Part shown: piece by piece, positions 3,253 through 27,881 of the stretch
Layout of the letters: the number at the start of each line of letters is the position of its first letter
How positions within the stretch are numbered: position 1 is the first letter of the stretch
Assembly: GCA_902774245.1 (NCBI GenBank)
Contig: CACYHQ010000007.1
Coordinates: 62,001 to 126,000 of the forward strand
Source: an uncultured bacterium
Lineage (GTDB): Bacteria; Verrucomicrobiota; Lentisphaeria; Victivallales; UBA1829
Reading direction: 5' to 3'
Length of the DNA stretch: 64,000 bases
The notes under the pieces: model-generated
Databases searched by the model: none
What the model saw: the letters and a program-made list of their open reading frames with translations, nothing else
Told to the model about the DNA's origin: nothing
Position numbers and translations under genes: made by a program

Positions 3253-3273
3253 TGTCTTTTCCGGCGGCTTCAG

Positions 3274-3299
3274 GCGGGTGTTTTTGCACCCGCTTTTTT
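3274..3299 (+). terminator. Rho-independent terminator
   Basis: Perfect 7-bp stem GCGGGTG (3274-3280) and CACCCGC (3287-3293), loop TTTTTG, then six T. It ends the transcript of the structured RNA and insulates the following genes. Confidence 0.85.
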
Positions 3300-3339: not shown

Positions 3340-3419
3340 AATAGATGTACGAATTTGCCCATACTGCACACTGTGTAAATATCACAATTAAAAAATATCC
3401 CGCAAACAGGAGGAAAACC

Positions 3420-4010
3420 GTGAACAAAACACCCCAGAACACCGGATCCGGCGCAGGACGTTCCGCCATCATTTACAATGTCATCATCATCGCGCTTGCG
3501 ATTGTCATCATCCTCATCCTGTCGTTCCTCTACAGAAAGAACGATTTCTTCCGTTCGCTCTTCGAAGGAAGCGTGACCGCGCCGACGCAGATGGCGAGCG
3601 AGAACGACATCCGCGAGGCGGCGAAGAACGTCGAAAAGATCAACAGGACGGCCGCGCACCTTTCGTTCTTCATCCTCATGTTCATCCTGGTCCTTCAGGC
3701 GACCGCGTTCATGATGGCGGCGAAAGTCTTCTCCGCGCTGAAACGCAGCACGGAAGCGGTCTCGGTCCGCCTGAAAAAGCTTGAGAACGCCGATCTCTTC
3801 CTCGACCTGCCGCTGTACTTCGGTCTGCTCGGCACTGTCTCCAGCTTCATCGTGATGTCGTTCAACCCGAACATCAGCCGCCTGATCGCCTACTCCTCCA
3901 CGCTCGTCGGCATCATCTTCAGCGTGATCCTGCGCCTGGTCTTCCAGTACCCGCTCAAACAGTCGCTCATCACCGCCGCCGAATCCAACGGAAAGGAATC
4001 CAAACAGTGA
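3420..4010 (+). CDS. Predicted MotA/ExbB/TolQ-like proton-channel subunit
   Basis: A 196-residue membrane protein starting at GTG 3420, chosen because AGGAGG at 3408-3413 is 6 nt upstream; an ATG at 3345 lacks a ribosome site. Four hydrophobic helices lie near residues 17-39, 80-103, 130-148 and 152-174. Helix 3 contains YFGLLGTVSSF and helix 4 AYSSTLVGIIFSVILR, which resemble the paired GLLGTV...F and sTxxGI segments of ExbB, TolQ and MotA that line the ion path. Loops are short, so this would be a minimal version; the long cytoplasmic loop of TolQ or MotA is absent. The stop overlaps the next start as GTGA, suggesting fixed stoichiometry. Assignment rests on motif resemblance seen by eye. 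Confidence 0.55.
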   Translation: MNKTPQNTGSGAGRSAIIYNVIIIALAIVIILILSFLYRKNDFFRSLFEGSVTAPTQMASENDIREAAKNVEKINRTAAHLSFFILMFILVLQATAFMMAAKVFSALKRSTEAVSVRLKKLENADLFLDLPLYFGLLGTVSSFIVMSFNPNISRLIAYSSTLVGIIFSVILRLVFQYPLKQSLITAAESNGKESKQ

Positions 4011-5818
4011 ACCGGTCCATTCTCATTGTCACATGCGACTTCCTGGTCCTGGCGGCAATGTCCCTGTCGATCGGGATGAACGAGGTCGGAGACCCCGCCG
4101 GGGCCGCGAAGATCTCGTCCCCCGCGACCCGTCTGGTCGAGATGATCGACGAGGAACTGGCGCGCCACGAGGAAGTGAAGCAGCAGAAAGACGAGCTGTC
4201 GAAACGTCTTGAGGAATTCCGCGCGCTCGCGCTGAAGGACGAAAAGCAGATCGCGTCTCAGGACGAGGAGATCAAACAAGCGCAGGCCAAACTCACCGAA
4301 ACGCTCGCCGCACTTACGAAGTCCAAAGACGAACTCACCTCCGAAAAGACGAAGTCCGAACAGGAACAGGCGAAGAGCGCCGCCGAACTCGCGAAGAGCG
4401 CCGCCGAGCTTGCGAAGACGAAAAAGGAACTCGACGAACGCGAAGCCGCGCTGAAACGTTCCGCCGCCGTCATCGAACAGAAGGAAAGCGAGCTGAAGAT
4501 CTCCGCGCAGGAGCTCGTCGAACGCGACAAGGTCATCCGCGACAGCGAAAGTCTCCTCGAAACGAGCGAGCGTTCCCTGGCGCGCGTTACGCAGGAAAAG
4601 GCCGCCGCGACCGAAAAGCTCCAGCAGAGCGAACGGACTCTGTCCCGGACGTCCGGCCAGCTCGAAGCGACGAAGGCCGAACTTGAAGCGCTCCGCGAAC
4701 AGGCCCGCCTGGACCGCGCACGCGCCGAGGAAGCCCTTTCAAAGTTTCATGCATCCGAACTTGAACTTGCGGAAACGAAGTCCAAACTCACGTCCACGCA
4801 GACCCAGCTGAACGGCATGGTGCGCGTGCTGGCGGACGTCAATTCGGACCTCGTGAAAACGAAAAGCGAGCTTGACAAGTCCGAACAGTCCCTTGCCATC
4901 TCGAAGGAGACGATCGCCCAGAACGAACGCCTCATGACCGAGAAGGACCGCACGATCGCGCAGACCGAAACGATCCTGACCCAGAAGGACAAGGTGATCG
5001 AAGACAAGGACCGCGACCTGAACGAGACCAAGAAGAAGGCCGACGAGCTGGAAAAGATGCTCAACAATGACGTCCTCACCAGTTACAACGCCTCCGCGCT
5101 TGAGCTCTCCTTCCACCTCGTCAACGACCGCCTTTTCAACAACATCGTCATCGACAAGTCGTTCTTCCTCCCCGCCGTCACGCTCGGCGGCAAGGCCTGG
5201 CTCGTCTCCGCTTTCCGCGACACGACCGGCCTGAACCTGCACTCCGGCTACACCAAGGTCACCGAACTCCAGTACAAGGTGCGTCGTCCGCAGAGCAAGG
5301 ATAAATGGTCCGCCGTCAACGGCCCGGCGCTCTGCCTCGCCGAAGACGCCCGCGTGTGCCTCTTCCCCGTTGCCTCGGACAAAGCGGAACCGGTCCGCGT
5401 GATCACGTTCGGCGCGCTCCGCGAACGCGGCCTCGACAACCTCACGCTCTTCAAGTCCGCGACGTTTTCGAAGGATTCCGCCGATATCACGGGGCGCTGC
5501 TCCGTGAGCATGGAGCAGGGCGACAATTATCTGTATATCCGCAACCCGAACCGATCTTCCAGCGAACTGAAGGCGGATGTCGGCGATATCGTGCTGTCGA
5601 AGGAAGGTTTCTTCGTCGGCGTGGTCGTGAAAGTTTCCTCGACCGACCTCGGGCAGACCTCTACGGCGAAGTGCTTCGTCTTCACCGGCGAACCCGCCCT
5701 TGCAAAGGCGACTCAGCTCCGTCTCACGAAGGAGCCGTCCCAGACGCTCTTCTACGACTTCGTGGACAAGCACGAATCCCTGCGGAGAGTCACCGAACAG
5801 CTTGACAGGACGAAATAA
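4007..5818 (+). CDS. Predicted MotB/ExbD-like subunit with long coiled coil and novel C-terminal domain
   Basis: 603 residues, GTG start overlapping the upstream stop. A single N-terminal hydrophobic helix (about residues 3-24) contains Asp in VTCDFLVLAAMSLSI, placed like the proton-carrying Asp of MotB, ExbD and ZorB. Residues about 45-350 are an almost unbroken heptad-rich coiled coil full of Glu, Lys, Ala, Ser and Thr (repeats such as KSAAELAK). A globular domain of about 250 residues follows (355-603), rich in beta strands and with a VGDIVLSKEGFFVGVVV segment that faintly recalls chymotrypsin-like folds; no catalytic triad can be assigned. Topology should put the coil and C-domain outside the inner membrane. 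A straight 300-residue helix would be near 45 nm, longer than a usual periplasm, so folding back is likely. Confidence 0.55.
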   Translation: MNRSILIVTCDFLVLAAMSLSIGMNEVGDPAGAAKISSPATRLVEMIDEELARHEEVKQQKDELSKRLEEFRALALKDEKQIASQDEEIKQAQAKLTETLAALTKSKDELTSEKTKSEQEQAKSAAELAKSAAELAKTKKELDEREAALKRSAAVIEQKESELKISAQELVERDKVIRDSESLLETSERSLARVTQEKAAATEKLQQSERTLSRTSGQLEATKAELEALREQARLDRARAEEALSKFHASELELAETKSKLTSTQTQLNGMVRVLADVNSDLVKTKSELDKSEQSLAISKETIAQNERLMTEKDRTIAQTETILTQKDKVIEDKDRDLNETKKKADELEKMLNNDVLTSYNASALELSFHLVNDRLFNNIVIDKSFFLPAVTLGGKAWLVSAFRDTTGLNLHSGYTKVTELQYKVRRPQSKDKWSAVNGPALCLAEDARVCLFPVASDKAEPVRVITFGALRERGLDNLTLFKSATFSKDSADITGRCSVSMEQGDNYLYIRNPNRSSSELKADVGDIVLSKEGFFVGVVVKVSSTDLGQTSTAKCFVFTGEPALAKATQLRLTKEPSQTLFYDFVDKHESLRRVTEQLDRTK

Positions 5819-12779: not shown

Positions 12780-15700
12780 ATGGCAATTGCACAAGGCAAT
12801 CTCTACATTGACCCCGCGTATGTCTCCCAGGAGGCGATCGACGCCCTGGGCGGCACTAGTTCCATTACCGGGGAACCGCTGGTTTACGGGTCTACCCTAG
12901 CGGACCTGGAAGCCGGCGCAAACGCGTTCATCCCGAACGGCATGACGAAATGGTTCAAAGTTGAAGGCCAGACCGTCTACGCCGCTCCCGGATGCACCAT
13001 GTATGTGTCCAACTACAACGTCAACAACGAGAGCTTCTACAGCAACGGCACCTACGGCCTGTATTTCAAGGGCTCTTCCGCCAACTACATCTACGGTCTT
13101 CCGAAGACCGCCGGCACGTATGACCTTGAGAACGGCATCAATATCACGCTGGAAGATTCTCTGATCCGCAACTCGCTCGCTCCTGGAGCCTTCCTCAGCG
13201 GCATCACCGTCATCGGCGATTTCAACATCAATATCTCCGGCTCCACGATCAACTCGCTGAACCTCGGCGGCGGCACCACGTACCAGCAGTACGGCACGAT
13301 CAACGGCAACATCAAGTTCAATGTCAAGGATACGGCTGTTACCAACGGCGACTTCCATATTCACAGCGGCAAGCTCTCCAACAGTGACAACACTGACGAA
13401 CTCGCCGTCGTGAGCGGCACCGTTTCCAATGTTACCGTGAGCGGCTCCTTCCGCGGTCTCCAGACCGACGGCGGCAACGACAACCGCGCCATGAACGCCA
13501 AGTTCGACGTTGTCATCACTGGGGCCAGCGTGAACGGCGACATCAGCATCGGCTGGTTCAACAACCCGACCGAGTGGAAGGGCTCCTACGTCCTCACCGT
13601 CGCGGGTTCGACCGCTGCCAGCATCCAGGGCAACGCCAGCACCGCAGGCGAAGCCGATGAACTTCCGGATGTCGAGAAGTTCGACCTGGTCCTCGGCGGC
13701 TCCGAAGCCAAGACCGTCACCGGTCAGATCCGCCGCTTCAAGACCATCACGATCAATGCAGGCGCGAAAGTCCAGGCCACCAGCATCTCGGGCGCCACGC
13801 TCGTGAATCTGGCCCAGGGCGCCGAAGTCTCCGTCGGTCAGCTCTCCGGCATCGGCACGCTCGCCATCACCGGCGAATACACCGCCGTGAGCAACACGCT
13901 CTTCAGCGGCCTCGAAAGCTTCTCCGTCGGCGACATCGCCGAAGTCACCCTGAACGGCGAGAAGATCGAATACGGCTTCATGCCCGGACAGTACTCCTTC
14001 ATGGGCGACAAGCTGGTCCTGCACGAAGGCAAAACCGTCCTCGTGAACAGCTCCTACACCGACGGCGCGAAAGTCGTCTATAAAGATATTGAATATACTG
14101 GTTATTCTTCTGTCGCGAGCGCGCAGGCCGCTGTTTCCGCCGACCAGTATATCCTCACCCTCGTTCCGACGGATGAAAGCTCCTCTGTTGGCGCCGACAT
14201 CGTGACCAAGGGCTACGGCGTGGTCGTTCAGGGCAGCGAAACCCCGATCGACATGCAGGGCAACAACTTCATGATCGGCGAAGACGGCGTAGCGAATGCT
14301 GGCGCCACGGTCATCATCGACGGCCTCAGCAGCGTCGGCACGCTCAGTTTCGGCGATCTTGATTCCGTGTACGTCTCCGCCGACAACGTCAGTGCCAGTA
14401 AGGTCGATCTCCGCGGCGCGAACATCGGCGACGCTGATATCTCCTTCAACGGCCTTGTTGTGGAAGAGGTCTATCTCCCCACCGCCAATTCGATCGACGG
14501 CGCTCTGAACATCACCTCCGGCTCGATTGAGACCATCTACGGTTCCCAGGAAGGCGACGGCAAGCTCGCGCTGAATTTCGGCAGCAGCGTTTCCGTCGGC
14601 ACCCTCTATTCCGAAGGCAAGTTCACTGACGTCGGCGGCGCGGCCGTTGACTACTACTATGCCGGCCTCAAGGACGGCGGCGACGTCGCATCCATTGATT
14701 TCGAGGCGACGAAGGCCGTCAAGATTTCGAATCTGGTCCTCGGCGGCGATGCTGCCACGACGATCGGCTCCGTGAACGCCAAGATCGGCGCTGCCGGCAT
14801 CGGTACTGTTCAGATCGGCGGCGATGCCGACACGATCTCCGGCGATGTCAATATTGAGCTGACCGGCCCGCAGGGCGTTGCTCCTGCCTCTGAAAACTTC
14901 CGCGGCATCACCTACGGCGCGGATATCTCCGGCGATCTCGACGGCAAAGCCGATGAAATCGGCGGCGATGCCATCCTCAACGTCACCGGTCATTCCAAAG
15001 TCAATTCCATCGACGGTTTCGACGTGATCAACGTTACGGGCGGTACCCTTAACGTCGGGCAGAGCCTCGAAGGCGATGCGAAGATCACCAACCGTCGTAC
15101 CATCAGCGCCGGCGGCGACATCTACGCCAGCAGCATCACGAACACCGGCGTCATCGGCGCCAAGGGTGCTCTCAATGTTGAAAACTCCGTCACCAACTCC
15201 GGCGAATTCCGCGTGGACAGCCTCACGGTCGGCGGCGCGTTCGACAACAGCAACACCATCTACGTCAACGGCTCCGTCACGGTCGACGGCATCTTCACGA
15301 ACTCCGGCGTCATCTACAGCGGCACCGCCGAAGGCAGCTCCTTCGCTCTGAACGACAAGGATCTGACCAACACCGGTACGATCTATGCCGCTTCCCTCAG
15401 CGGAGTGAAGAACCTCTCCACCTCCTCGCTGTTCGTGTCCGGCAATGCGGCCATCGACGGTACCCTCACCGTCAATGCCTACTCCAGAGTCGCGTTCCAG
15501 GAAGGTCTGGAAGGCTACACCGCCGTCACGATCGACGCCACCTCCACTCTGAGCGTCGGCGGCGATTCCTTCGACGGCAGCGGCAAGACCCTGACCATCA
15601 ACGTCGGCGACCTGATCGGCTACAATGAAGTCGTCCGCGCCAACGGCGGCCTGAACGACTGGACGATCAAGCTCTCCGACACGAGCAAGTACGGTTATAC

Positions 15701-18700
15701 CGTGTCCGACACCTCCATCGTCGTCTACTCGACCGATGTGGTCTACGTCAACTCCGGCTTCGACGCCAATTCCGACATTATCGTCGACGGCAACAAGCTC
15801 CTCTACGGCAAGAACGCGTTCGCAAGCGTCGAAGAAGCCGTCGCGGGCGCCAAGGCCGGCGCGAAGATCGTCATCGTCAATGACAAGTCCGGCATGGACG
15901 TCAACGCCGCCAGCTTCGACGTCGTTCTCGACGGCTCCACCGTCGGCAACGTCACCGCGAAGACCCTCGGCGTCACCAGCGACAGCAAGGCCAACAGCAT
16001 TGCTTCCGCCACCCGTCTTACGATCGACGCGGGCGCGGTCCTGAGCGTTGCTGACACGATCCCGGCCAATCTCCCGATCGCGATCGATGCCTCCGAAGGT
16101 GCAGGCTCCCGCCTTGCCCTTGACGTCGACGCCACGAAGGTCACGCTCTCCGAAGACCAGGTTACGGTCATCGGCAAGAACACCTATTCGGCCAAGGTCC
16201 TCGACGGCGAATCCGCGCACGCGGGCGACCTTTATCTTATCTCTACGGATGTCGTCTACTTCGCACCGAACAAGTACGAAGAAATCATGGGCGAACGCCA
16301 GGTCGTCATCGACGACGTTCCGCAGGTCGATCCCGAGACCGGCGAACCCATCATGGAACAGTACGGCACCGGCGTCTATAAGGCCACCTTCGTCGACGGC
16401 GACTTCGACAAGGCGACCGGCGACGCTCTGTTCGACGGCGTCAATATCTTCCAGTCGAAGGATGATGCCGTTGCGGTCGCGACCGGAGTTACCGGCGTGC
16501 TCGTCATCGTCGATCACATGCTCGAAAACCATTTCAAGGTCGCCGGCGTCACCACGGCGTTCGAGAGCGACATGGAAACCGTCAGCGGCGTCAACCGCAG
16601 CATCTACGGCGGCGTGACGTCCGATCAGTCCTACACGGGCGAGGGAGACCTCACCGTCATGGTCCTCGGCACGACGATGAGAGGCAACCTCTATGCCATC
16701 GCCAAGAAGGCCACGATCAAGGAGGTTGACACCTACACCCTCGTCATCAAGGATACGACCCATCTCAGCAACAACGCTGATCACTGCGCGTATTTCGTTG
16801 CCAGGGACAACGGCAGCCAGATCGACGGCGATGTCTTCGTCAATGTCAGCAACAGCGTGTTCAACGGCCAGGCCACGACCACGGTCGGCGGCAACAGCAC
16901 GGTCGGCGGCGACATCACCTACGACATCTCCGGCAGCACGTTCACGGCGGGCCTCTCCCTCGTTACGAACAACATGAACGCCAAGGTCTCCGGCAACATC
17001 AACGCCGAGATCTCCGGCTCCAGCATCGCCGGTTTCTATGTCGGTTACGGCACGTTCGGCACCGACGAGACCGCTCCGATCGACATCGACGTCAAGGTCA
17101 CCAATTCCAGGATCAGCGATTTCCGAGCCTTCCGCGTGAGCGAAGACGCCAACATCCTTCCTGTCATCAATGCCAACCTCAACGTCGAGATCTACGACTC
17201 GTCCGTGAGCGGCGCCTTCTACGCGGTGTACACCGGCGACTGGGACGGCGGCTCCGGCGTCAGACTGCGCTACACGGCGTACAACTCCGGCAGCATCACC
17301 GTGACCTTCGGCGGCGTCTCCGGCCTCGACCAGGTCCACGGCGGCGACTCCCTGACGCACAGCCGCAACGCTCTGCAGAACTTCAACATCCCGACCCTGC
17401 TCCACATTGTGAAGGGCGAGAAGAGCGAAACGACGGTTGCCAACTGGGTCATGGAATGGGAAACCATCATGGTCGACGCAAACGCGACCTTCCAGGTTAA
17501 CAACGACATCCAGTATCTGTCCGGCGACGTCACCGGCCGTATCGTGAACGACGGCCAGGTTGCCCTGTACAAGATCAACATGGCCGGTTTCGAAGGCGGC
17601 ACCCGCGCCGTCATCCGCGCCAACAACATCTACGTCAATGAAGATCATTCCGGCATCGAAATGATCGGCAGCGAAGACATCGAAGGTCGTTACGAGCTCG
17701 TTCTCGTCGGCAGCGGCAACAGACTGAAGCAGATCGGCGTGTACGACAAGGCCAGCGACATCTACCTGAACAGCACGTATGCCTCCGGCATCCACGGCAC
17801 CTTCGACGGCAGCCAGGTCCTATACTTCGGCTACAATGCTCTGAATGATGCTTCCGAAGCCGAATCCCTCATCTCCGAGTGGGGCAACGCCCTGGTCATC
17901 ACCGGCGGTACCTTCGGCGATATCGAATTCGCCGACGCCCTGACCGTCCGCGCCGCCACTGTGGACTCCCTGACCGGTTCCGGCAGCGACGACGACGTGA
18001 CCATCACGATCGAAGCCAAGGCCGCCATCGGCTCCCTCGTCGTGACCGACAGCGCGGTTGCCGGCGATGTGAACGTCACCGTCAACGGCGCGCTCGCCTC
18101 CGAGGCGGACATCGACGGCGTCAGGGACCAGGTCGCAGGCAAGGCCAAGCTCGACATCAAGGCGACGACCGATCTCGGCGATGTCACCAACTTCGACGAA
18201 GTCACGGTGGCCAAAGGCGCGGAAGTTGTGTTCAGCACTCTGACCAACGCTTCCCTGAGCGTCTTTGCGACCAACACCATCTCGGCCGACAGCATCACGC
18301 TCGGCAGCGATGTCATCACGATCGACGTCACCAACTACGACGGCGGCCCGCGCACCCTGATCTACACCGTGAACGGCATCACCGACTTCGCGGCCTCCAA
18401 GGTCAAGCTCGTCGCGGCCGACGGTTCGACCGTTACCCCCGATGACTTCACCGTCAACTACGCCGACGGCAACCTGTCCATCGTCACCAAGAAACCGACC
18501 GACATCTACCTGAACAGCGAGTATTCGGCCGCCACCACCGGCACGTCCTATGACGGCGTCTACCTGGAATACGGCTTCAACGCGTTCAGCACGATTGCCG
18601 ATGCGGTCTCCGCTGTCGGCGAAGGCTACAGCGTCATCATGACCGGCGGCGAATTCGCCGACACCATCACGCTCGACGGCGTTCCGTTCATCCTGAAGGA

Positions 18701-21700
18701 AGGCATCCTCGGCATGGTCAAGGGCGGCTCCCTCACGGTTGAAGGCAGCGCCACCGTGACCGACGGTATCGAAGACATCTCCGCTCTCACGGTCGACGCC
18801 GGCGGAACCCTCGTCGCGGATCACATCGACCTGCTCGACGGCTCCTCGATCACCGTCACGGCCAACAGCTTCAAGACGGAAGAAGGCAACCTGCACAAGG
18901 TCATCGACACGGTCACCGGTATCTCCGGCACGACCACGTTCAACGGCCAGGGCGTCTACGTGTTCTACCAGAACAACGACCTGTACGTCCTCGACAAGAG
19001 CCGCATCTATGTCGATCCGACCTACACGGCTGCCATCACCGGCACCACCGCCTTCACCGGCGACACCCTGATCTTCGGCGTCAACGCGTTCGCGGTCCCG
19101 TCCAACACGAACTTCGCTGAAGCCACCGAGGTCAACAATGCCCTCGTCGCCGGCGGCACGATCTTCGTTCTGAACTGGGGTACCCGCGGCACGCAGGCCG
19201 GCGACCTCCGCGTCATGAAGGACGTCAGCATCTACACGCAGGGTCCGACCAACTACTCCATCGTCTTCGGCAACAACGGCGGCGACGGACACGTGGTCAA
19301 CGATGATATCCACATCACCATCAGCAACACCGGCACGCCGCAGGGCAACACCCGCATCATCCACAGCGGCAACGACAATGCCCCCTGGACCTTCAACGGC
19401 AACGTCTACATCACGTTCAACGGCACCGGCAACCTCAATACGAACGCGAACTTCGGTATTGTGGCCCGCTCCAGGTTCAACGGCGACATCGTCCAGATCA
19501 ACATGGACGGTTCCAACGGCATGAACAACGATGCCGACTACTGGATCTTCCGCAATATCGTGGGCGGCGCCTTCGACAACGTCGGACTGGTCGAAGTCAA
19601 CATCACCGGCGTGACGACCCCGAACTCCAAGTGGGCCGGCATCTTCGACGGCGATCCGACCATCTCCGCCAAGAAGGTCGTCCTTAACATGACGGACTGC
19701 GTGTACCGCGGCGGCAACTGGTCCTACAGTATGGTCACCAACGGCGCCAACTCCAGAGCCACGAACTACGACGTGCACATCAGCGGCACCACGATCGAAG
19801 GTCTCCTCTCCGGTCTGCGCAGACGCGACCAGAACGTCCCGGGCACTGGTTCCGAGTACTCCGGCACGAGAACGCTGTACGTCGACGGCAACAAGATCAG
19901 CCGTGTCCAGCAGGCTCAGATGTTCAACCACATCGTGATCGACGCCAACGCCCAGCTGATCGTCAACAACGCCAACAATCCGAGACTCGGCGCGGTCCAG
20001 TTCCTGGCCTCCAGAACCGCCGGAACCTCCGGATTCGACGACAAGGATAGCATCATCATCAACGTCAGCACCTATGAAGGCGCCGACAAGATGCTCATTC
20101 AGGCTCCGAGCTTCTCCTATGGCCAGAACGCGAGTGCCACCCTCGACGACGTCGACGTCATCATCGAAGGCGACACCGAAGGCAAGTTCATTGCCGGCCT
20201 CGGCCTGACCAAGGGCGTGTACATGATCACCAAGAACGGCGACGTGCTCTTCAACTCCTCCTACACGGCTGATGACAACGGTACCGCGGTCGGCGACACC
20301 TTCGTCCACATGGACGAGATCAACCCCGAAGATTCCAACGCGTTCAACGTCTTCGACGATGCCAAGGCTGCGTTCGACGCGCATGAAGCCGCCAATCCGG
20401 GCCGCACGCTATTCGTGACCGGCAACGGCGACAGTGCGTTCTACGCTGACGGCTATGCCGTGACCATCTCCGGCGGCACCTACGAGAACGGCGTGTACGG
20501 CACCGACGATGAAAAGGATTCCGTCGCTTCCGTCAGCCTGAAGATCACCGACGGCCAGTTCTTCGAAGTCGCGGCCTCCGATGGCAACGGCTCCGTTACC
20601 GGCGCCGCCACGATCGAACTCGCCGGCGGCAAGTTCGGTATCGCGGCAGTCTATCAGACGCCGGAAGCTACCGAAGAGAATCCGAATCCGGAACCCGAGA
20701 AGGTTGAAGACGAAGTCTCCGCCACGATCAGCGGCAGCAGCGACAACGTGGGCGGCGTCAGCTCCCTCGTCGTCAGCGCCGACCTAACGATCAACGGCTC
20801 CATCGAAGACTTCGATGCTGCGACCGTGAACGCCAACCTGACTGTCACGGGCGACTTCGAAGCCGAAACCATCACGATCGACGCCAGCAAGATCGTGAAG
20901 GTCGAAGGCGACATCGATGCAACCACGATCATCATCGACGCGACCCAGTACGTCGGACCTTCGAAGGTCATCGCGGTTTCCGACACCTTCGAAACCCTGG
21001 CGGACCAGCCGGCCGTCACCATCCTCGGCGACGCCGAAACCTACGACTACAAGTACGTCGAAGATACCCTGTACCTCGTGTCCAAGCACGCGGGCAACGT
21101 CTATCTGAACAGCACCTGGGATGAATCCATCTCCGGTACGATCTACAACGGCGAACTCCTCGTCTGGGGCGTCAATGCGACCAACAGCATGGACGAAGCG
21201 GTCCTGAAGCTCACCGATGACTACTCGCTGTTCATCACCGGCGGCAACTTCGCCGGCACCTACACGTTCTCCGGCAATGCCAAGATCGACATCCGCGACG
21301 ATGCCACCACCATCGGCGGCCTCGTTCTCGGCGACGGCTCCACCATCACGATCTCCGGCGTTACCAGCGGCAAGTCCTCCATCGGCAGCATCGTCGCCGT
21401 GGAAGGCTACACCTCCGGCGTCAACGTGACCGCGTTGAGCGAGACCGCCTTCGGCGCTCTCTCCGACATCCGTTCCATCACGGTTGCCGCGGGTCAGGTC
21501 TCCGCCGACTCCATCACCTACCGTGAAAACGGCGGATCCCTCACCATCGACTTCGCCGACTACACCGCCGGCGCAGGCGTGGTCCTCCAGACCAAGGATG
21601 GCATCAGCAACTTCATCCAGCCGGTCGAAGGCCAGACCTTCAGCCGCACGACTGTCGGCGCCAACAACAACACCGACAGGCTGATGCCGTACTACGACGA

Positions 21701-24700
21701 AGCCAAGAAGGCCGTCGTGGCCGTCGAACGCGGCGCGTTTGCGTTCCTCGATGCCAATGCCAGCGCCGACGAAAACGGCACTGTCGTGACCATCGATGGC
21801 CAGACCGCCACGAAGGTCTACGGTTACAACTACTCCGAGTGGAACGTCAACGTCGGTCGTTACCTGATCTCCGGCGGCACGCTCTTCGCCGACGGCGGCG
21901 AAGAAACGCCCTTCTACTGGTTCTTCACGGCCGCACCCATCAATGTGAACGTCAACCACATCAGAACCGGCGGCTTCGTGGCCGGCTACAACGATGACAG
22001 CGCCGCGGACGAGAAGTACCGCGACGGCGAATTCACCGCGGTCATCAACGCCTCCACGATCACCTGGTTCGCCGCGATCGCCGGCCAGGGCAACAACACG
22101 ACCCATCAGGAAATGGTCGTTGCCAAGTACGACGATACGGAAGAAGAGTGGAACGATGTCGCATGGAACATCACGATCTCCAACGGCACCCACGACACCA
22201 ACGACTTCCGCGTCGCGCGCTATGCCAACCTCTCCGGCGGCACCGTGAACGTCACGTTCTCCGACTACCTGCTCCGCGGCGACCTGATGCTCTTCGACCG
22301 TGTCTTCAACGGCAAGGCTGAAGGCCACGACGGCGATGAGCTGAAGGAAGTCAACGTCACCCTGACGAACGTCCAGGAACCCGCTGCCAAGTGGATCCAG
22401 GTCTGGGAACCGCAGGAAAGCAACAGCACCAAGATCAATCTGACGATCACCAACATGAACATGGCTGGTGACAACACGTCCACGATCGGTCTCTTCGGTG
22501 TCGACACCACCGGATCCTGGAACGGCGAAGCCGACGTCTACATCACCGGCCTCACCAACACCCAGGGCAACCTGAACGGCGGCCGCGGCCAGACCGGCGG
22601 CGGTCTCGACAACATCGACGGCGTCCGCAGACTCCACGTGTATGGCACTGAGAACAACATTGCCACCATCAGAGAGTTCACGAGCATCGAAGTTGCCGAC
22701 GGCGCTCTGCTGAGAGCCAACAACATCTCCGTGTCCGAAGGCGAAGGCTTCATCCTCCGCGGCGAAGCCGGATACAAGGGCGATGCCAAGGTCTACGTTG
22801 TGGCCGGTACCACGATCTCCGGCAACACCGAAGCTCAGTTCCTCGACGCGAACGACGAGGAGATCGAAGGCTATGCTGCCGTCGTTGGTAACACCACCGC
22901 GTTCGTCTACTACACCGAAGGCGATGTGTACTTCAACAACACGTTCAGTGATGCGACCACCGGCACGGCTGTCGTCGAAGCCAGCGGCATCACGAACTTC
23001 CTGGTGTACGGTGACAACGCTGTCTCCGGCATGCAGGCCGCCTCGGCCGCCATGGATGCCCGTGACGACGCCACGATCTACGTCCTCGGCGCTGCCAGCT
23101 CGAACTTCGAGACCCGCGGCTACCGCATCGTCTTCAACAGCGGCCGTGCCACCACCATCTGGGGCGGCTTCAACGGCACCGCTGAAGAAGTTCAGGAAAC
23201 CGTGAGCTCCGCCGACATCACCGTCAATAGCGGTGCGACCGTGACGAACATCTACGCTGCCGGCGCTCAGGCAATGGTCTCCGGCGACGTCAACATCACC
23301 ATCGGCGAAGGCACCTCCATCGCCGGTATCATCGACGGCGCTCAGAACTTTGTGGCCGGCGACAGATTCCTGACCTTCAAGGGCTCCGCGACGGTCAAGG
23401 GCGATGTCCTCGGATTCAGCAAGGTCTCTGTTGATGCTGATGAAGTCGTCGCTGTCGGCGGCACCGTCAGCAACGCTGCCATCGTGATCGACGCGACGGG
23501 CTTCAAGAACTCCTCCAAGATCGTCATGTCCTCCGAGGCCGGTTTCGATGATTCCGTCACCGTCTCCGTGATCGGCGAAGGCTTCAGCTACGAGTTCACC
23601 GAAGACAAGAAGTCCCTCCTGGTCGTTTCCCCGTTCGTCGGCGACACGTTCTTCAACACCGACTGGACTCCGGACGACGTCGCGGGTCTCTTCGTCGGCG
23701 GCGTGGAACTCGTCTGGAACAAGAACGCCTTCAACACCCTGGCCGGTGCGGCCGGTGCGGTCGGCGCGGGCTACTCCGTCGTTATGGACGGCGGCACGAC
23801 CTCCGAAAGCGCGGACCTCGCGGGCCACGACTTCGTGTCCGGCGGTACCGCCGCCAGCTCCGTCGGCAACGTCTCCAGCACGGGCGCGACCCTGACGGTC
23901 TCCAATGACCTGACCGCGTCCGGCCTCGCCGGATTCGCCGCCATCGACCTGACCGCGGGCAAGACCCTCACGGTCTCCGGCGGCATCGATCTGGCTGCCA
24001 ACGCCGCGATCAACATCGACGTGACCGGTTACACGCAGACTGCGGACGACGTCGTCCTCATCGCCACCGGAACCGGCATCGCCAACATCGACACCGCGAC
24101 CATCAGCGTGGTCGGCAAGAACGAAACTCCGTTCCTCGTCTACTACGATGCGGAAGACAAGAGCGTGCACATGAAGAACGTCGACAAGTTCTACGTTGAC
24201 GTGGCTTACGGCACCGCCGGCGAGAACATCCAGCCCGGCCAGACCGACCCGACCACGGGCGAAGCGCTCGTCTTCGGCGTGAACGCGTTCTACTCCTTCG
24301 CCGATGCGTCCAGCAAGATGAAAGCCGGTCAGACGATCTACGTGTACAACATCGAAGGTGATGCCAACACGCAGAACAAGATGGCCAGCATGTACATCGC
24401 CAACAGCGTTGCGAACAATGTCAGCTGCGGTTTCACCAGCGGCGACCAGTCCTTCGTCGGCGATGTCTCCCTGACGATCGTGAACAGCACGTTCGCGACC
24501 GTTGACGGCGACTACCTGATGGGCAACGTGACCGACGGCGAACCCTGGAACCACCAGAACCGGATCTTCGGCAATGTCACGCTCGAAGTGACCGGCTCGA
24601 CGATGGGCGTTCCCAACACCGGCGGCAACATGACCCGCGTCTATCACTACACGCAGGTCTACGGCACCGCTGAAAATCCGGCCCTCGTGACGATGAGCTT

Positions 24701-27700
24701 CAAGGATACCGTCATCAGCAACGATATCCTCTTCATCGGCGACTCCCCGATCGGCAAGACCACTGAAATCGACGGCCAGACCTACACCGGCGCCGACCTG
24801 GTCATCAACCTTGAAAACGTTGATGTCCCGGCTGCCAAGTGGTGGAGAATCCAGGACGGCGACCAGGAATCCAAGGGCACCATCTCCGTCAACATCAAGG
24901 GCAGCACCTTCGCTTCCCAGAGCGGCACGATGCGTCTTGCTCTCGACAACAACTGGGGTACCGGCTGGGGCGCGATTCCGCGCAGCAGCTCCGACTTCGT
25001 CTTCACGGTTGAAGACTCGGTCATCAACGGCTATCTCATCGCCGGTCGTCTCGACTACGGCCGCGACGATGCCGAACTGGCTGACACCTACACCGGCGCG
25101 AAGACCCTGACCGTTGTCGGCGATGTCAAGATCACCAACACACTCTGGTTCAGAGAGCTCAACCTGACCGCCGATTCCAACTTCACCGGAACCACGCTCC
25201 GCATGGCCACCGCCGGTTCGACGATCAACGTCGACATCACCGGCTACACCGGAAAGAGCAAGGTCCTCGTCAGCATGACCAATGCGTTCGAGAACTTCGA
25301 CAAGGCCACGATCAACGTTGTGAAGGATGAAGGCTCCAATGTCGACATTCTCGCTTCCGACCGCGCCATCGTCATCAAGGGCGAAGTCAAGGACGTCTAC
25401 GCGAACAGCACGTACACGGCTGCCGTCACCGGTACCGTCTACGAGCCGACCGGCGAGCTCCTGCTCTTCACCGCCAACGCCTTCGACAAGATGGCGGATG
25501 CCATCACGGCCGTGGCGGCCGACGGTACGATCTACGTCACCGGCGGTTCCCTCGAAGTTGCGACGGCTCTGCCGACCAACAGCATCACGATCGACGCAGG
25601 CGCCAACCTGACCTACAAGGGCGGCGTTGCGATCACCATCACCGATGCGTTCGTGAACGAAGGCACGCTGACGATGTCCACGGATGGCTTCGACCTCTCC
25701 AGCGGCAAGACCCTGGCCCTGTCCGCCGGCTCCATCTCCGGTACCGGCAACTACAAGGTCATCGGCGACACCAGATACCTCCTCCAGAAGGACGGCAACG
25801 CGTACTACTTCGTCGAACGTAAGCTCGACGTGTACGTGAACACCTCCTGGAGCGATCTGGAAGACGGCACTGTGGTCACGCTGCTCTCCGGCGGCACCGC
25901 CACCATCGGCACCGACGCGTTCGCGTCCGGCGACGCTGCTTTGGCGAACGTCTTCGGCGGCGGCTCGATCACGATCGAAGCCGGCGACATCGCGTTCAGC
26001 TCCAAGGTGACCTGCACGGTCAACGCTCTCACGGGCGTCAACGTCAGCACCACGATCATCGACGATCAGGGTGTCCTGACGGTCAGCGAAGGCGCTTCCG
26101 CCGCCAACATGACTGTCCGTAAGGGCGGCACCCTGACGGTCGACGCCGGTGCTCTCCTGACCGGTACGCTCGCTCTCGGCAACGGCTCCACCGCCACCGT
26201 CAACGGCACGTTTGACTTCAACCTGGCCGGTATCGCGGCCGGCAACGAAGCCATCGTGAACAACATCGCGGGTATCGGCGGCGCGCCGACCTACACGATC
26301 ACGGTTGACGCCACCCAGGCCGACGGCACCTACACGCTGGCCGGCGGCGCTTCCACGTTCGCCATCACCGGCGGTATCGTCGTGAAGACCACCTCCGCGG
26401 AAATCGGCACGCTGACGACCCTCGGCAAGACCGAGAACTTCGGCGGCATCCTCTACACGCTGGGTATCACCGACAACGGCGATCTGGCTCTCACCAGAGA
26501 AGTCTACATCGCCCCGATCGAAGTCACCTACGTGAACAGCGAATGGGCCGGCCTTGCTGCTGACACGATCGTTCAGGTCGCTGGCGGCACCGCCAAGATC
26601 GGTTACGACGCGTTCGCGACCGGCGACGAAGGTATTGCTGCGGTCGTCGACTACGGCAAGGTCGAAGTCGTCGGCGGCACGGTCTCCTTCACGGATGCCA
26701 TCGCCAAGACCATCGTGATCAACAACGATGCCACGCTCGTCGGCAACGCCACGTTCGCTACCGCGATCACCGTCACCGGCACCGTCGCGTTCGACACCGC
26801 CTTCGCGAGCACGGAAGCAGCCCAGTTCGGCGGCTTCTCCTTCGTGGGCGGCGAAACGAAGTACACGCTGACCGATGCGGCCGGCGTCATCGGCGACTAC
26901 AAGCTCGCCTCCGACGTCACCGCATTCACCGGCTCCATCTCGTTTGCGGACGGCGCTCTGACTGTCGGCGGCGACGCTGTCGTGGTCGATGACCTCGCCT
27001 ACACGGTCGCCATCGTCGGTACCGACCTCGTTCTCTCGGTCGCCGAATACGTCCCGCCGGTCGTTGTCCCGACACAGGCGTACGTGAACAGCGAATGGGT
27101 TTCCTATGCTGAAGGCACGGTCGTTCCGGTCACTGGCGGCACCGCCGTCATCGGTTACGACGCGTTCGCGGATCTCGCTTCGGCCATCACCGGCACAACT
27201 GACGACGGCAAGATCAACGTCGTCGGCGGCTACATCACCTTCGCGTCCGGCTACAGCAAGACCATCACGGTCGAATCCGCGGCCACCGTCATCGGTTCCG
27301 CCAACTTCGACAAGCCCATCACGATCGACGGCACGATCAACTTCAGCACTGCCTTCGCGACCGCGGCGGAAGCTCAGTTCAAGAACTTCTCCAACGTCAC
27401 GACCAGCGCCTCGACGTCCTACGTGCTGACCGATACGAACCCGACCGCGGGTACCTTCCTGCTCGCCTCCAACGCAGCCACGTTCAACAGCAACGTCGAG
27501 CTCAATGTTGGCGAAGCGTGGTACACGCTGACGGTTGGCGCGGATGCCATCCAGGTTGGCGACTTCACCTACGCGCTCGGCATCACCGCCAACAGCGAAC
27601 TCGCTGTGACGGTCGCCGCGTACGTCCCGCCGACCCCGCCGTCCGATTACATCGCCAAGGGCGACCGCGACGGAAACGGTATCTCCGACGTGATGTTCGT

Positions 27701-27881
27701 CTGGACCGACAACAACTGTGCGCACGGCTACTGGATGCTACGACATGAGCGGCGACGGCAAGGCCGACGCGGTCATGTTCGGCAACGTGACCACCGACGC
27801 CGGAATCAAGGGCGCCTACATCGGTTACTACCAGGACGGCGACGACGCGAACGGCTGGGTGACCATTGGTTACCTCGATAA
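12780..27881 (+). CDS. Giant repetitive beta-solenoid surface protein (about 5,000 residues), C-terminus frameshifted
   Basis: One 15.1-kb frame, rich in Gly, Asn, Thr, Val, Ser, Asp and with almost no Cys. It starts MAIAQGNLYIDP without a signal peptide, so type I-like export is more likely than Sec. About 17 modules each open with a Y-x-N-S-x-Y/W motif and then G-x-N-A-F-x(4)-DA and GG-x-F/Y, the pattern that opens many pectin-lyase-like beta-helix domains. Short (150-280 residues) and long (400-500) modules alternate; long ones begin near 12800, 16252, 19000, 21738 and 24187. The last three short modules (25825, 26524, 27076) are most alike, hinting at recent duplication. A proline-rich linker leads into a DRDGNG calcium-binding motif, after which the frame is lost near 27735; the final 49 codons are out of phase. 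Codon choice is strongly biased, as in abundant proteins. Adhesion, S-layer or cell-cell roles are inference. Confidence 0.85.
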   Translation: MAIAQGNLYIDPAYVSQEAIDALGGTSSITGEPLVYGSTLADLEAGANAFIPNGMTKWFKVEGQTVYAAPGCTMYVSNYNVNNESFYSNGTYGLYFKGSSANYIYGLPKTAGTYDLENGINITLEDSLIRNSLAPGAFLSGITVIGDFNINISGSTINSLNLGGGTTYQQYGTINGNIKFNVKDTAVTNGDFHIHSGKLSNSDNTDELAVVSGTVSNVTVSGSFRGLQTDGGNDNRAMNAKFDVVITGASVNGDISIGWFNNPTEWKGSYVLTVAGSTAASIQGNASTAGEADELPDVEKFDLVLGGSEAKTVTGQIRRFKTITINAGAKVQATSISGATLVNLAQGAEVSVGQLSGIGTLAITGEYTAVSNTLFSGLESFSVGDIAEVTLNGEKIEYGFMPGQYSFMGDKLVLHEGKTVLVNSSYTDGAKVVYKDIEYTGYSSVASAQAAVSADQYILTLVPTDESSSVGADIVTKGYGVVVQGSETPIDMQGNNFMIGEDGVANAGATVIIDGLSSVGTLSFGDLDSVYVSADNVSASKVDLRGANIGDADISFNGLVVEEVYLPTANSIDGALNITSGSIETIYGSQEGDGKLALNFGSSVSVGTLYSEGKFTDVGGAAVDYYYAGLKDGGDVASIDFEATKAVKISNLVLGGDAATTIGSVNAKIGAAGIGTVQIGGDADTISGDVNIELTGPQGVAPASENFRGITYGADISGDLDGKADEIGGDAILNVTGHSKVNSIDGFDVINVTGGTLNVGQSLEGDAKITNRRTISAGGDIYASSITNTGVIGAKGALNVENSVTNSGEFRVDSLTVGGAFDNSNTIYVNGSVTVDGIFTNSGVIYSGTAEGSSFALNDKDLTNTGTIYAASLSGVKNLSTSSLFVSGNAAIDGTLTVNAYSRVAFQEGLEGYTAVTIDATSTLSVGGDSFDGSGKTLTINVGDLIGYNEVVRANGGLNDWTIKLSDTSKYGYTVSDTSIVVYSTDVVYVNSGFDANSDIIVDGNKLLYGKNAFASVEEAVAGAKAGAKIVIVNDKSGMDVNAASFDVVLDGSTVGNVTAKTLGVTSDSKANSIASATRLTIDAGAVLSVADTIPANLPIAIDASEGAGSRLALDVDATKVTLSEDQVTVIGKNTYSAKVLDGESAHAGDLYLISTDVVYFAPNKYEEIMGERQVVIDDVPQVDPETGEPIMEQYGTGVYKATFVDGDFDKATGDALFDGVNIFQSKDDAVAVATGVTGVLVIVDHMLENHFKVAGVTTAFESDMETVSGVNRSIYGGVTSDQSYTGEGDLTVMVLGTTMRGNLYAIAKKATIKEVDTYTLVIKDTTHLSNNADHCAYFVARDNGSQIDGDVFVNVSNSVFNGQATTTVGGNSTVGGDITYDISGSTFTAGLSLVTNNMNAKVSGNINAEISGSSIAGFYVGYGTFGTDETAPIDIDVKVTNSRISDFRAFRVSEDANILPVINANLNVEIYDSSVSGAFYAVYTGDWDGGSGVRLRYTAYNSGSITVTFGGVSGLDQVHGGDSLTHSRNALQNFNIPTLLHIVKGEKSETTVANWVMEWETIMVDANATFQVNNDIQYLSGDVTGRIVNDGQVALYKINMAGFEGGTRAVIRANNIYVNEDHSGIEMIGSEDIEGRYELVLVGSGNRLKQIGVYDKASDIYLNSTYASGIHGTFDGSQVLYFGYNALNDASEAESLISEWGNALVITGGTFGDIEFADALTVRAATVDSLTGSGSDDDVTITIEAKAAIGSLVVTDSAVAGDVNVTVNGALASEADIDGVRDQVAGKAKLDIKATTDLGDVTNFDEVTVAKGAEVVFSTLTNASLSVFATNTISADSITLGSDVITIDVTNYDGGPRTLIYTVNGITDFAASKVKLVAADGSTVTPDDFTVNYADGNLSIVTKKPTDIYLNSEYSAATTGTSYDGVYLEYGFNAFSTIADAVSAVGEGYSVIMTGGEFADTITLDGVPFILKEGILGMVKGGSLTVEGSATVTDGIEDISALTVDAGGTLVADHIDLLDGSSITVTANSFKTEEGNLHKVIDTVTGISGTTTFNGQGVYVFYQNNDLYVLDKSRIYVDPTYTAAITGTTAFTGDTLIFGVNAFAVPSNTNFAEATEVNNALVAGGTIFVLNWGTRGTQAGDLRVMKDVSIYTQGPTNYSIVFGNNGGDGHVVNDDIHITISNTGTPQGNTRIIHSGNDNAPWTFNGNVYITFNGTGNLNTNANFGIVARSRFNGDIVQINMDGSNGMNNDADYWIFRNIVGGAFDNVGLVEVNITGVTTPNSKWAGIFDGDPTISAKKVVLNMTDCVYRGGNWSYSMVTNGANSRATNYDVHISGTTIEGLLSGLRRRDQNVPGTGSEYSGTRTLYVDGNKISRVQQAQMFNHIVIDANAQLIVNNANNPRLGAVQFLASRTAGTSGFDDKDSIIINVSTYEGADKMLIQAPSFSYGQNASATLDDVDVIIEGDTEGKFIAGLGLTKGVYMITKNGDVLFNSSYTADDNGTAVGDTFVHMDEINPEDSNAFNVFDDAKAAFDAHEAANPGRTLFVTGNGDSAFYADGYAVTISGGTYENGVYGTDDEKDSVASVSLKITDGQFFEVAASDGNGSVTGAATIELAGGKFGIAAVYQTPEATEENPNPEPEKVEDEVSATISGSSDNVGGVSSLVVSADLTINGSIEDFDAATVNANLTVTGDFEAETITIDASKIVKVEGDIDATTIIIDATQYVGPSKVIAVSDTFETLADQPAVTILGDAETYDYKYVEDTLYLVSKHAGNVYLNSTWDESISGTIYNGELLVWGVNATNSMDEAVLKLTDDYSLFITGGNFAGTYTFSGNAKIDIRDDATTIGGLVLGDGSTITISGVTSGKSSIGSIVAVEGYTSGVNVTALSETAFGALSDIRSITVAAGQVSADSITYRENGGSLTIDFADYTAGAGVVLQTKDGISNFIQPVEGQTFSRTTVGANNNTDRLMPYYDEAKKAVVAVERGAFAFLDANASADENGTVVTIDGQTATKVYGYNYSEWNVNVGRYLISGGTLFADGGEETPFYWFFTAAPINVNVNHIRTGGFVAGYNDDSAADEKYRDGEFTAVINASTITWFAAIAGQGNNTTHQEMVVAKYDDTEEEWNDVAWNITISNGTHDTNDFRVARYANLSGGTVNVTFSDYLLRGDLMLFDRVFNGKAEGHDGDELKEVNVTLTNVQEPAAKWIQVWEPQESNSTKINLTITNMNMAGDNTSTIGLFGVDTTGSWNGEADVYITGLTNTQGNLNGGRGQTGGGLDNIDGVRRLHVYGTENNIATIREFTSIEVADGALLRANNISVSEGEGFILRGEAGYKGDAKVYVVAGTTISGNTEAQFLDANDEEIEGYAAVVGNTTAFVYYTEGDVYFNNTFSDATTGTAVVEASGITNFLVYGDNAVSGMQAASAAMDARDDATIYVLGAASSNFETRGYRIVFNSGRATTIWGGFNGTAEEVQETVSSADITVNSGATVTNIYAAGAQAMVSGDVNITIGEGTSIAGIIDGAQNFVAGDRFLTFKGSATVKGDVLGFSKVSVDADEVVAVGGTVSNAAIVIDATGFKNSSKIVMSSEAGFDDSVTVSVIGEGFSYEFTEDKKSLLVVSPFVGDTFFNTDWTPDDVAGLFVGGVELVWNKNAFNTLAGAAGAVGAGYSVVMDGGTTSESADLAGHDFVSGGTAASSVGNVSSTGATLTVSNDLTASGLAGFAAIDLTAGKTLTVSGGIDLAANAAINIDVTGYTQTADDVVLIATGTGIANIDTATISVVGKNETPFLVYYDAEDKSVHMKNVDKFYVDVAYGTAGENIQPGQTDPTTGEALVFGVNAFYSFADASSKMKAGQTIYVYNIEGDANTQNKMASMYIANSVANNVSCGFTSGDQSFVGDVSLTIVNSTFATVDGDYLMGNVTDGEPWNHQNRIFGNVTLEVTGSTMGVPNTGGNMTRVYHYTQVYGTAENPALVTMSFKDTVISNDILFIGDSPIGKTTEIDGQTYTGADLVINLENVDVPAAKWWRIQDGDQESKGTISVNIKGSTFASQSGTMRLALDNNWGTGWGAIPRSSSDFVFTVEDSVINGYLIAGRLDYGRDDAELADTYTGAKTLTVVGDVKITNTLWFRELNLTADSNFTGTTLRMATAGSTINVDITGYTGKSKVLVSMTNAFENFDKATINVVKDEGSNVDILASDRAIVIKGEVKDVYANSTYTAAVTGTVYEPTGELLLFTANAFDKMADAITAVAADGTIYVTGGSLEVATALPTNSITIDAGANLTYKGGVAITITDAFVNEGTLTMSTDGFDLSSGKTLALSAGSISGTGNYKVIGDTRYLLQKDGNAYYFVERKLDVYVNTSWSDLEDGTVVTLLSGGTATIGTDAFASGDAALANVFGGGSITIEAGDIAFSSKVTCTVNALTGVNVSTTIIDDQGVLTVSEGASAANMTVRKGGTLTVDAGALLTGTLALGNGSTATVNGTFDFNLAGIAAGNEAIVNNIAGIGGAPTYTITVDATQADGTYTLAGGASTFAITGGIVVKTTSAEIGTLTTLGKTENFGGILYTLGITDNGDLALTREVYIAPIEVTYVNSEWAGLAADTIVQVAGGTAKIGYDAFATGDEGIAAVVDYGKVEVVGGTVSFTDAIAKTIVINNDATLVGNATFATAITVTGTVAFDTAFASTEAAQFGGFSFVGGETKYTLTDAAGVIGDYKLASDVTAFTGSISFADGALTVGGDAVVVDDLAYTVAIVGTDLVLSVAEYVPPVVVPTQAYVNSEWVSYAEGTVVPVTGGTAVIGYDAFADLASAITGTTDDGKINVVGGYITFASGYSKTITVESAATVIGSANFDKPITIDGTINFSTAFATAAEAQFKNFSNVTTSASTSYVLTDTNPTAGTFLLASNAATFNSNVELNVGEAWYTLTVGADAIQVGDFTYALGITANSELAVTVAAYVPPTPPSDYIAKGDRDGNGISDVMFVWTDNNCAHGYWMLRHERRRQGRRGHVRQRDHRRRNQGRLHRLLPGRRRRERLGDHWLPR

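Follow-up and report, generated by a model that had tools for sequence, protein, structure and literature searches.

A conserved pair of adjacent genes, encoding a four-helix membrane protein (A) and a protein with a single membrane helix, a long coiled coil and a C-terminal domain (B), constitutes an undescribed family that is spread over its phylum with a vertical, single-copy distribution. The pair is motor-like by anatomy and is not placed in any known motor family. The explanation that we favour, at a probability of about 0.57, is that A and B together are an ion-driven motor, distant or convergent, that works like the 5:2 motors and has its output on B. To our knowledge, ion-driven motors of this A/B type are few, and each has been found to power a different job; they comprise MotAB, ExbBD, TolQR, AglRQS, GldLM and ZorAB. 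A co-inherited, phylum-wide pair that shares their key features, has a new output module and falls in no Pfam, NCBIfam or PADLOC family would extend this class of motors to the Verrucomicrobiota/Lentisphaerota, whose envelope is poorly known; motor or not, the pair is an envelope machine that is conserved and that also occurs in cultured species such as Victivallis vadensis.

The locus was analysed within a window, the whole stretch of 64,000 nucleotides, from a host genome (G000) of 2.84 Mb that is 86% complete. A sequence-only reading of this DNA had described a four-helix protein with GLLGTV and STLVGI helices, coupled by a GTGA overlap to a protein with one N-terminal Asp-bearing helix and a coil of about 300 residues, and both open reading frames and their coordinates were confirmed (Table 1). 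The stop codon of gene A occupies 4008-4010, the GTG of gene B beginning one position before it. A longer ATG frame opens upstream at 3345, and the start given in Table 1 is preferred because the Shine-Dalgarno sequence and the relatives favour it. On the other strand upstream of A lie hisD and hisC, and 3' of B lie a gene for a small DUF486-like membrane protein and then one for a large cation-chloride-cotransporter-like permease, all named by reading their sequences; with these flanking genes, the pair appears to be a lone unit within the window. As each of the features of A and B is conserved in the homologous loci examined, they are not the product of chance. A G+C-rich stem-loop followed by a T-run is found on the forward strand at 3272-3295, between hisD and gene A and 5' of the A start, and could be a leader terminator or attenuator.

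Table 1. Features of the A/B locus, in window positions.
Feature	Position	Strand	Basis
Shine-Dalgarno sequence of gene A, AGGAGG	3408..3413	+	sequence
Gene A, 196 aa, GTG start; membrane protein with four helices	3420..4010	+	ORF, relatives, AlphaFold2
A TM1, about residues 16-38, weakly conserved	3465..3533	+	helix 11-40 in model; mean entropy 2.66
A TM2, about residues 80-104; across 30 phylum-wide sequences Gln93 is invariant	3657..3731	+	model, alignment
A TM3, residues 129-149, DLPLYFGLLGTV...F; D129, L132, Y133, G135 invariant; T139 mostly Thr/Ser	3804..3866	+	alignment
A TM4, residues 154-177, AYSSTLVGI; A157, Y158, S160, G164 invariant	3879..3950	+	alignment
Gene B, protein with single helix, coiled coil and predicted HtrA fold, 603 aa, GTG start	4007..5818	+	ORF, position in relatives
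B N-terminal membrane helix, about residues 4-23	4016..4075	+	alignment; positive-inside charge pattern
B Asp11 codon (gac), invariant membrane Asp	4037..4039	+	95/95 B proteins and 38/38 out-of-sample
B coiled-coil region, residues 41-345, proline-free	4127..5041	+	heptad-like pattern
B C-domain, residues 346-603 (258 residues), predicted trypsin/HtrA-like, no catalytic Ser or His	5042..5815	+	model, alignment

With the window A as query, A was found in single copy in 62 of 100 relatives, among them every one of the 12 other genomes of the genus. A scan of contigs with A yielded 101 relatives, of which 80 were kept; nearly all belong to the Lentisphaeria/Victivallales, one is recorded as Verrucomicrobiota (L128), and among them are Victivallis vadensis DSM 14823 (L114) and the Lentisphaerota zth2 (L083) and WC36 (L123). 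The closest named relatives are rumen Victivallales/Lentisphaeria assemblies. A phylum-wide model of A (A4), built from distant members, detected A in 125 of 388 sampled genomes of the phylum. Single in-frame stops occur within the A match in G107, G182, G309, G320 and G381, and reflect either sequencing error or decay. No relative was found in the plasmids and viral contigs searched, and an origin in mobile elements or defence islands was rejected on this ground.

The two genes are inherited together. Within the order, with B sought through its C-domain, 61 genomes carry both genes and 37 carry neither, while one has A alone, its contig ending just past A, and one has B alone, on a contig fragment (Fisher p 4e-25, a value that ignores shared ancestry). 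Phylum-wide, the open reading frame directly 3' of A is B in nearly every complete locus, and in an out-of-sample test on 38 loci fetched after this rule had been stated, B adjoined A in 36, three of these neighbours being recognised only on checking all frames. In the two exceptions (G381 and G386) B resides elsewhere in the genome with its Asp present, and that both genes persist once separated points to functional dependence. The conservation of the pair on which the sequence-only reading depended is thus observed both in the order and in the new loci. Unlinked genes that are both kept are located on C6 and C20 in G381 and at 252 kb and 323 kb of C2 in G386 (loci L249, L251, L266 and L267).

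The AlphaFold2 model of A (pLDDT 84) contains helices at residues 11-40, 42-49, 61-109, 114-146 and 150-193, corresponding to four membrane helices and a short one, with GLLGTV (residues 135-140) in TM3 and STLVGI (160-165) in TM4. Mean entropy is 1.26 and 1.34 in TM3 and TM4, compared with 2.66 and 2.25 in the variable TM1 and TM2, and conservation in TM3 and TM4 has a periodicity of 98-102 degrees, meaning that it follows one helix face. Across 30 phylum-wide sequences, invariance extends to Q93, the TM3 and TM4 residues so marked in Table 1 and one Leu near the C-terminus. This pattern is as would be expected of pore-lining inner helices in the style of MotA and ExbB, and is not proof of homology. 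The TM2-TM3 loop is rich in Lys and Arg, which places the TM3-TM4 hairpin in the MotA/ExbB topology, and together with the helix layout supports the MotA/ExbB-like topology first proposed for A. At the level of sequence alone, A therefore displays the motor-family traits of Thr or Ser in TM3, an invariant Ser160 in TM4 and a K/R-rich (presumably cytoplasmic) TM2-TM3 loop.

Membership of the pair in the MotAB/ExbBD/TolQR/ZorAB group, also proposed in the sequence-only reading, was not supported by the profile searches. PF01618 (MotA_ExbB) was absent from the Pfam matches of the window A at E<=10, and in a scan of 75 A proteins (E<=0.1) it was not among the 25 most-matched of 56 Pfam families, outside which a lone weak match of a member is possible. 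A PF01618 search of the same genome returned three genuine MotA_ExbB loci elsewhere, the A/B locus not being among them. Alignment of A by hhalign with 30 ExbB/TolQ-type proteins of the same order gave probabilities of 7-11% (P 0.003-0.005) and put the GLLGTV and TM4 columns of the two in register; block-shuffled ExbB profiles scored equal or higher, and this likeness, being motif-driven and no better than shuffles, was rejected as evidence of homology. When the monomer model of A was compared with the PDB by Foldseek, TolQ, ExbB, MotA and PomA made up 10 of the top 50 matches, at non-significant E-values of 1.7-4.5 and TM-scores of 0.2-0.3. A PDB sequence search with the profiles of both proteins gave no match, and scans of A and B against Pfam, NCBIfam and PADLOC gave chance or coiled-coil matches and weak ones to KwaA only.

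These results bear on a stricter claim than motor-like working, and one compatible with the favoured explanation, namely that the pair truly belongs by descent, though as a very divergent member, to the MotA/TolQ/ExbB-MotB/TolR/ExbD superfamily. The TM3 motif PL[YL]xGLLGTVxxF and a TM4 with polar S/T and G occur in the same order and topology as in that superfamily, and are the columns that hhalign brings into register; with a score not above that of shuffled controls and no Pfam match, however, we regard common descent as possible but doubtful. A motor mechanism does not hinge on a profile match, because GldL-GldM is a 5:2 motor that itself lacks obvious sequence homology to MotAB (PMC9389320).

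B proteins were picked by position and length, not by motif, and all 95 of them, representing 68 distinct 30-residue N-termini, have Asp at the column of the window Asp11, as residue 11 in 93 and residue 13 in two. The residue is kept in all 38 out-of-sample B proteins (26 distinct N-termini among those counted), or 133/133 overall, and it shares full invariance in the B N-terminus with Met1 only, while the helix around it differs among the proteins (MNRSILIVICDFLVL, MNKTLLLIICDFLLLNLLAL, MRRSILIVMLDVMVLSVLAL). The intramembrane Asp that had been picked out in the window B is thus an invariant feature of the family. The net charge of B is +1.0 in the N-terminal tail and -1.6 in the 30 residues past the helix, which by the positive-inside rule, the one basis for this topology, suggests that B is likely N-in, with the coil and C-domain outside, as in MotB and ExbD. 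A single N-terminal helix with a conserved Asp and an N-in charge pattern is the MotB/TolR/ExbD trait found in B. The tail ahead of the Asp comprises 10 residues and is without the Pro of ExbD/TolR, and a cleavable signal peptide was judged unlikely because the invariant Asp sits in the core of the helix. Disulfide pairing was rejected as proof of a periplasmic B, since the Cys columns pair inconsistently. The 305 residues of the window coil include no proline, and Glu makes up 16% of them and Ala, Leu and Lys 12% each; across the family the coil measures 196-456 residues, or 29-68 nm as a straight helix, a range that is a poor fit to a strict ruler.

The model of the B C-domain (pLDDT 92.6) matches HtrA/Deg chains in Foldseek with a probability of 1.00 and an E-value of about 5e-6, and the domain is accordingly modelled as a trypsin/HtrA-like fold without catalytic residues. 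The assignment is one of fold, because hhalign against genuine HtrA proteins of the same phylum was not significant and no sequence method detects the likeness. At the site of the HtrA GNSGG motif, 66 of 68 B proteins have GD followed by F, L, I, M or Y (one has Ser), and the His equivalent is absent in Lentisphaeria, which suggests that the domain should be proteolytically dead. B C-domains of other classes have GD followed by a hydrophobic residue or Ala and are also without the Ser, and those of other lineages are homologous to the window's (hhalign probability 96, P 3e-9). The domain had been described as some 250 residues long, not recognisably OmpA-like and otherwise unknown; its length and its difference from OmpA stand, and the HtrA-like fold found by Foldseek replaces the rest.

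Comparison with known systems places the pair near several and within none. ExbBD and TolQR are likewise two-gene pairs whose A-type subunit has a GLLGTV helix followed by one with a polar residue, and whose B-type subunit has a single N-terminal Asp helix (...DV in ExbD/TolR, CDF or LDV in B, for which N-in is the probable orientation); they differ in the lack of profile similarity, in the four helices and very short TM3-TM4 hairpin of A, in the coil of about 300 residues and HtrA-like head that B has in place of the small ExbD fold, and in that A/B has no TonB/TolA partner. MotAB and PomAB share the four-helix A, the conserved TM3/TM4 and a B helix in which Phe follows the Asp, whereas A/B is without their torque-generating cytoplasmic domain, plug, OmpA-like domain and a profile match. 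GldL has two membrane helices. The GldLM/PorLM motors of type IX secretion and gliding have, like A/B, a long periplasmic shaft on the B-type subunit, and the FGE-fold GldK has a counterpart in the FGE-type domain that the operon kinase bears in relatives; four folded domains build the GldM shaft, that of B being a coiled coil, and no GldN or secretion genes are found near A/B. The location of the long tail on the B side, presented earlier as a new feature, is correct in that the coiled coil is there, but its novelty was overstated, as GldM already has a periplasmic shaft 18 nm long (PMC9389320). The Zorya tail is cytoplasmic and belongs to ZorA, and ZorB has a peptidoglycan-binding domain (PMC11890865). 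ZorAB, an ion-motor pair, resembles A/B in its conserved B-subunit Asp and in having one extension of unusual length, and differs in that A/B has its tail on B, an HtrA-like domain and a single-copy, vertical spread that is not defence-island-like; next to A/B the ZorC/D/E genes are absent, and no Zor profile matches. DegS and HtrA share with B a membrane-anchored trypsin-like fold, while B is without the catalytic Ser (GD[FLIMY] for GNSGG), the His (in Lentisphaeria) and a PDZ domain, and has the coil inserted.

To the earlier remark that no receptor, nuclease or tonB gene is adjacent it must be added that relatives, unlike the window's own genus, do have neighbours of interest. In 44 loci (L114:11305-15871 and 43 others), all from Victivallaceae-type genomes of one family, B is followed by a gene for a Ser/Thr protein kinase and then usually by one for an ABC-F ATPase. 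The kinase keeps its motif (HRD/HCD/HGD-[LI]KPxN), has one apparent membrane span near residue 380 (by eye) and usually carries an FGE-sulfatase domain at its C-terminus; its nearest NCBIfam family is PknD, under the cut-off, while the ABC-F protein passes the NCBIfam threshold for ribosomal-protection-like ABC-F. The FGE domain has a weak match to GldK (3e-9, below cut-off), which may be an echo of the GldK-GldLM arrangement or possibly mere fold similarity. Full-length orthologues of the kinase were not found in the tested genomes of the window's genus or its sister genera, and the kinase and ABC-F therefore look like lineage-specific additions. With such orthologues confined to one family among the tested genomes, and that not including the window's genus, the kinase was rejected as an essential third component.

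The topology of the pair, the GLLGTV-type helix, the one-face conservation of TM3 and TM4 and the invariant Asp of the partner all support motor-like working. In the inner membrane, an oligomer of A, probably a pentamer, would encircle a dimer of B N-terminal helices, and Asp11 of B would be alternately protonated or ion-bound, and then released, against a polar ring of A formed by T139 in TM3 and S160/T161 in TM4. Ion inflow would turn A relative to B, and the coiled-coil dimer of an N-in/C-out B would carry this movement into the periplasm, where a coil of about 45 nm when fully extended is probably tilted or folded back and where the dead HtrA-like head may bind a periplasmic, peptidoglycan or outer-membrane partner. 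The kinase and ABC-F that share the operon in Victivallaceae-type relatives would probably regulate the machine or read its state. The motor reading is favoured by the co-occurrence of the genes, the order of B after A, the Asp, the N-in charge pattern, the recurrence of TolQ, ExbB, MotA and PomA, though at non-significant E-values, among the Foldseek matches, the GldLM precedent and the HtrA fold, and is weakened by the lack of profile homology, Foldseek E-values above 1, a 10-residue B tail without Pro, the variable coil length and weak KwaA matches in some A proteins. A broader proposal, which we advance as a speculation and consider improbable as it stands, is an old motor architecture, common across the Verrucomicrobiota, in which the Asp subunit is the output and bears a coiled-coil rod of roughly 30-68 nm and a dead HtrA head, with a transmembrane Ser/Thr kinase and an ABC-F translation factor coupled to it in some families; if true, it would link the state of an ion motor directly to phosphorylation and the ribosome.

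The main rival to the motor is a non-motor anchored scaffold or sensor, a passive or signalling complex in which A would hold B in the inner membrane, Asp11 would serve helix packing or assembly, and the head would act in the periplasm, possibly binding misfolded envelope proteins as a DegS-like protein without a protease and signalling to the kinase in genomes that have it. The head is folded like stress-sensing HtrA proteins, a one-span kinase, mostly with an FGE-type C-terminal domain, shares the operon in 44 loci, and homology to MotA/ExbB is not demonstrable, all of which would suit such a complex; yet an exceptionless buried Asp and the Thr/Ser/Gly face of TM3/TM4 exceed the needs of anchoring, and most lineages that keep A and B are without the kinase, so we judge this rival unlikely. 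Far less probable still is a distant kinship of A with KwaA, from the Kiwa anti-phage system, which would make the pair a Kiwa-like sensor complex with another partner: A and KwaA are both four-helix membrane proteins and resemble each other weakly along the TM2-TM3 stretch, 14 of 75 A proteins are hit by the KwaA profile of PADLOC (best E 8.4e-7) and a short motif around TM3 is common to A (LENADLFLDLPLYFGLL) and the KwaA of L215 (IEHANNSFLPSYLGYF), but the profile-profile match by hhalign is not significant (probability 2-5%, with scores of 20.6-23.5 where shuffles reached at most 19.5), 8 of 10 A proteins that were scanned one by one, among them the four that come from other lineages of the phylum, have no match, B is unrelated to KwaB and no KwaB adjoins A, and the vertical, single-copy distribution without a plasmid or viral-contig match differs from that of KwaA. 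L215:961-3065, in another genome of the phylum, is a genuine Kiwa-type locus in which KwaA is followed by a KwaB-like gene.

Several families have a long form of A, a protein of about 570 residues in which A is the C-terminal part and is preceded by an additional N-terminal domain some 380 residues long (L149:6604-8316, L134:6812-8500 and L141:6815-8527), with two extra membrane helices by eye. This domain matched no Pfam family in L149, L134 or L141 and no NCBIfam family in L149 or L134. A gene that by eye encodes peptide deformylase lies in opposite orientation upstream of A in L149, L150 and L141, which belong to the long-A families. Finally, positions 12780-27881 of the window (+ strand) form a single open reading frame of 5033 aa with many 'VYLNSTY...GT...' repeats and low-complexity sequence, the product of which is probably a giant surface or autotransporter-like protein.
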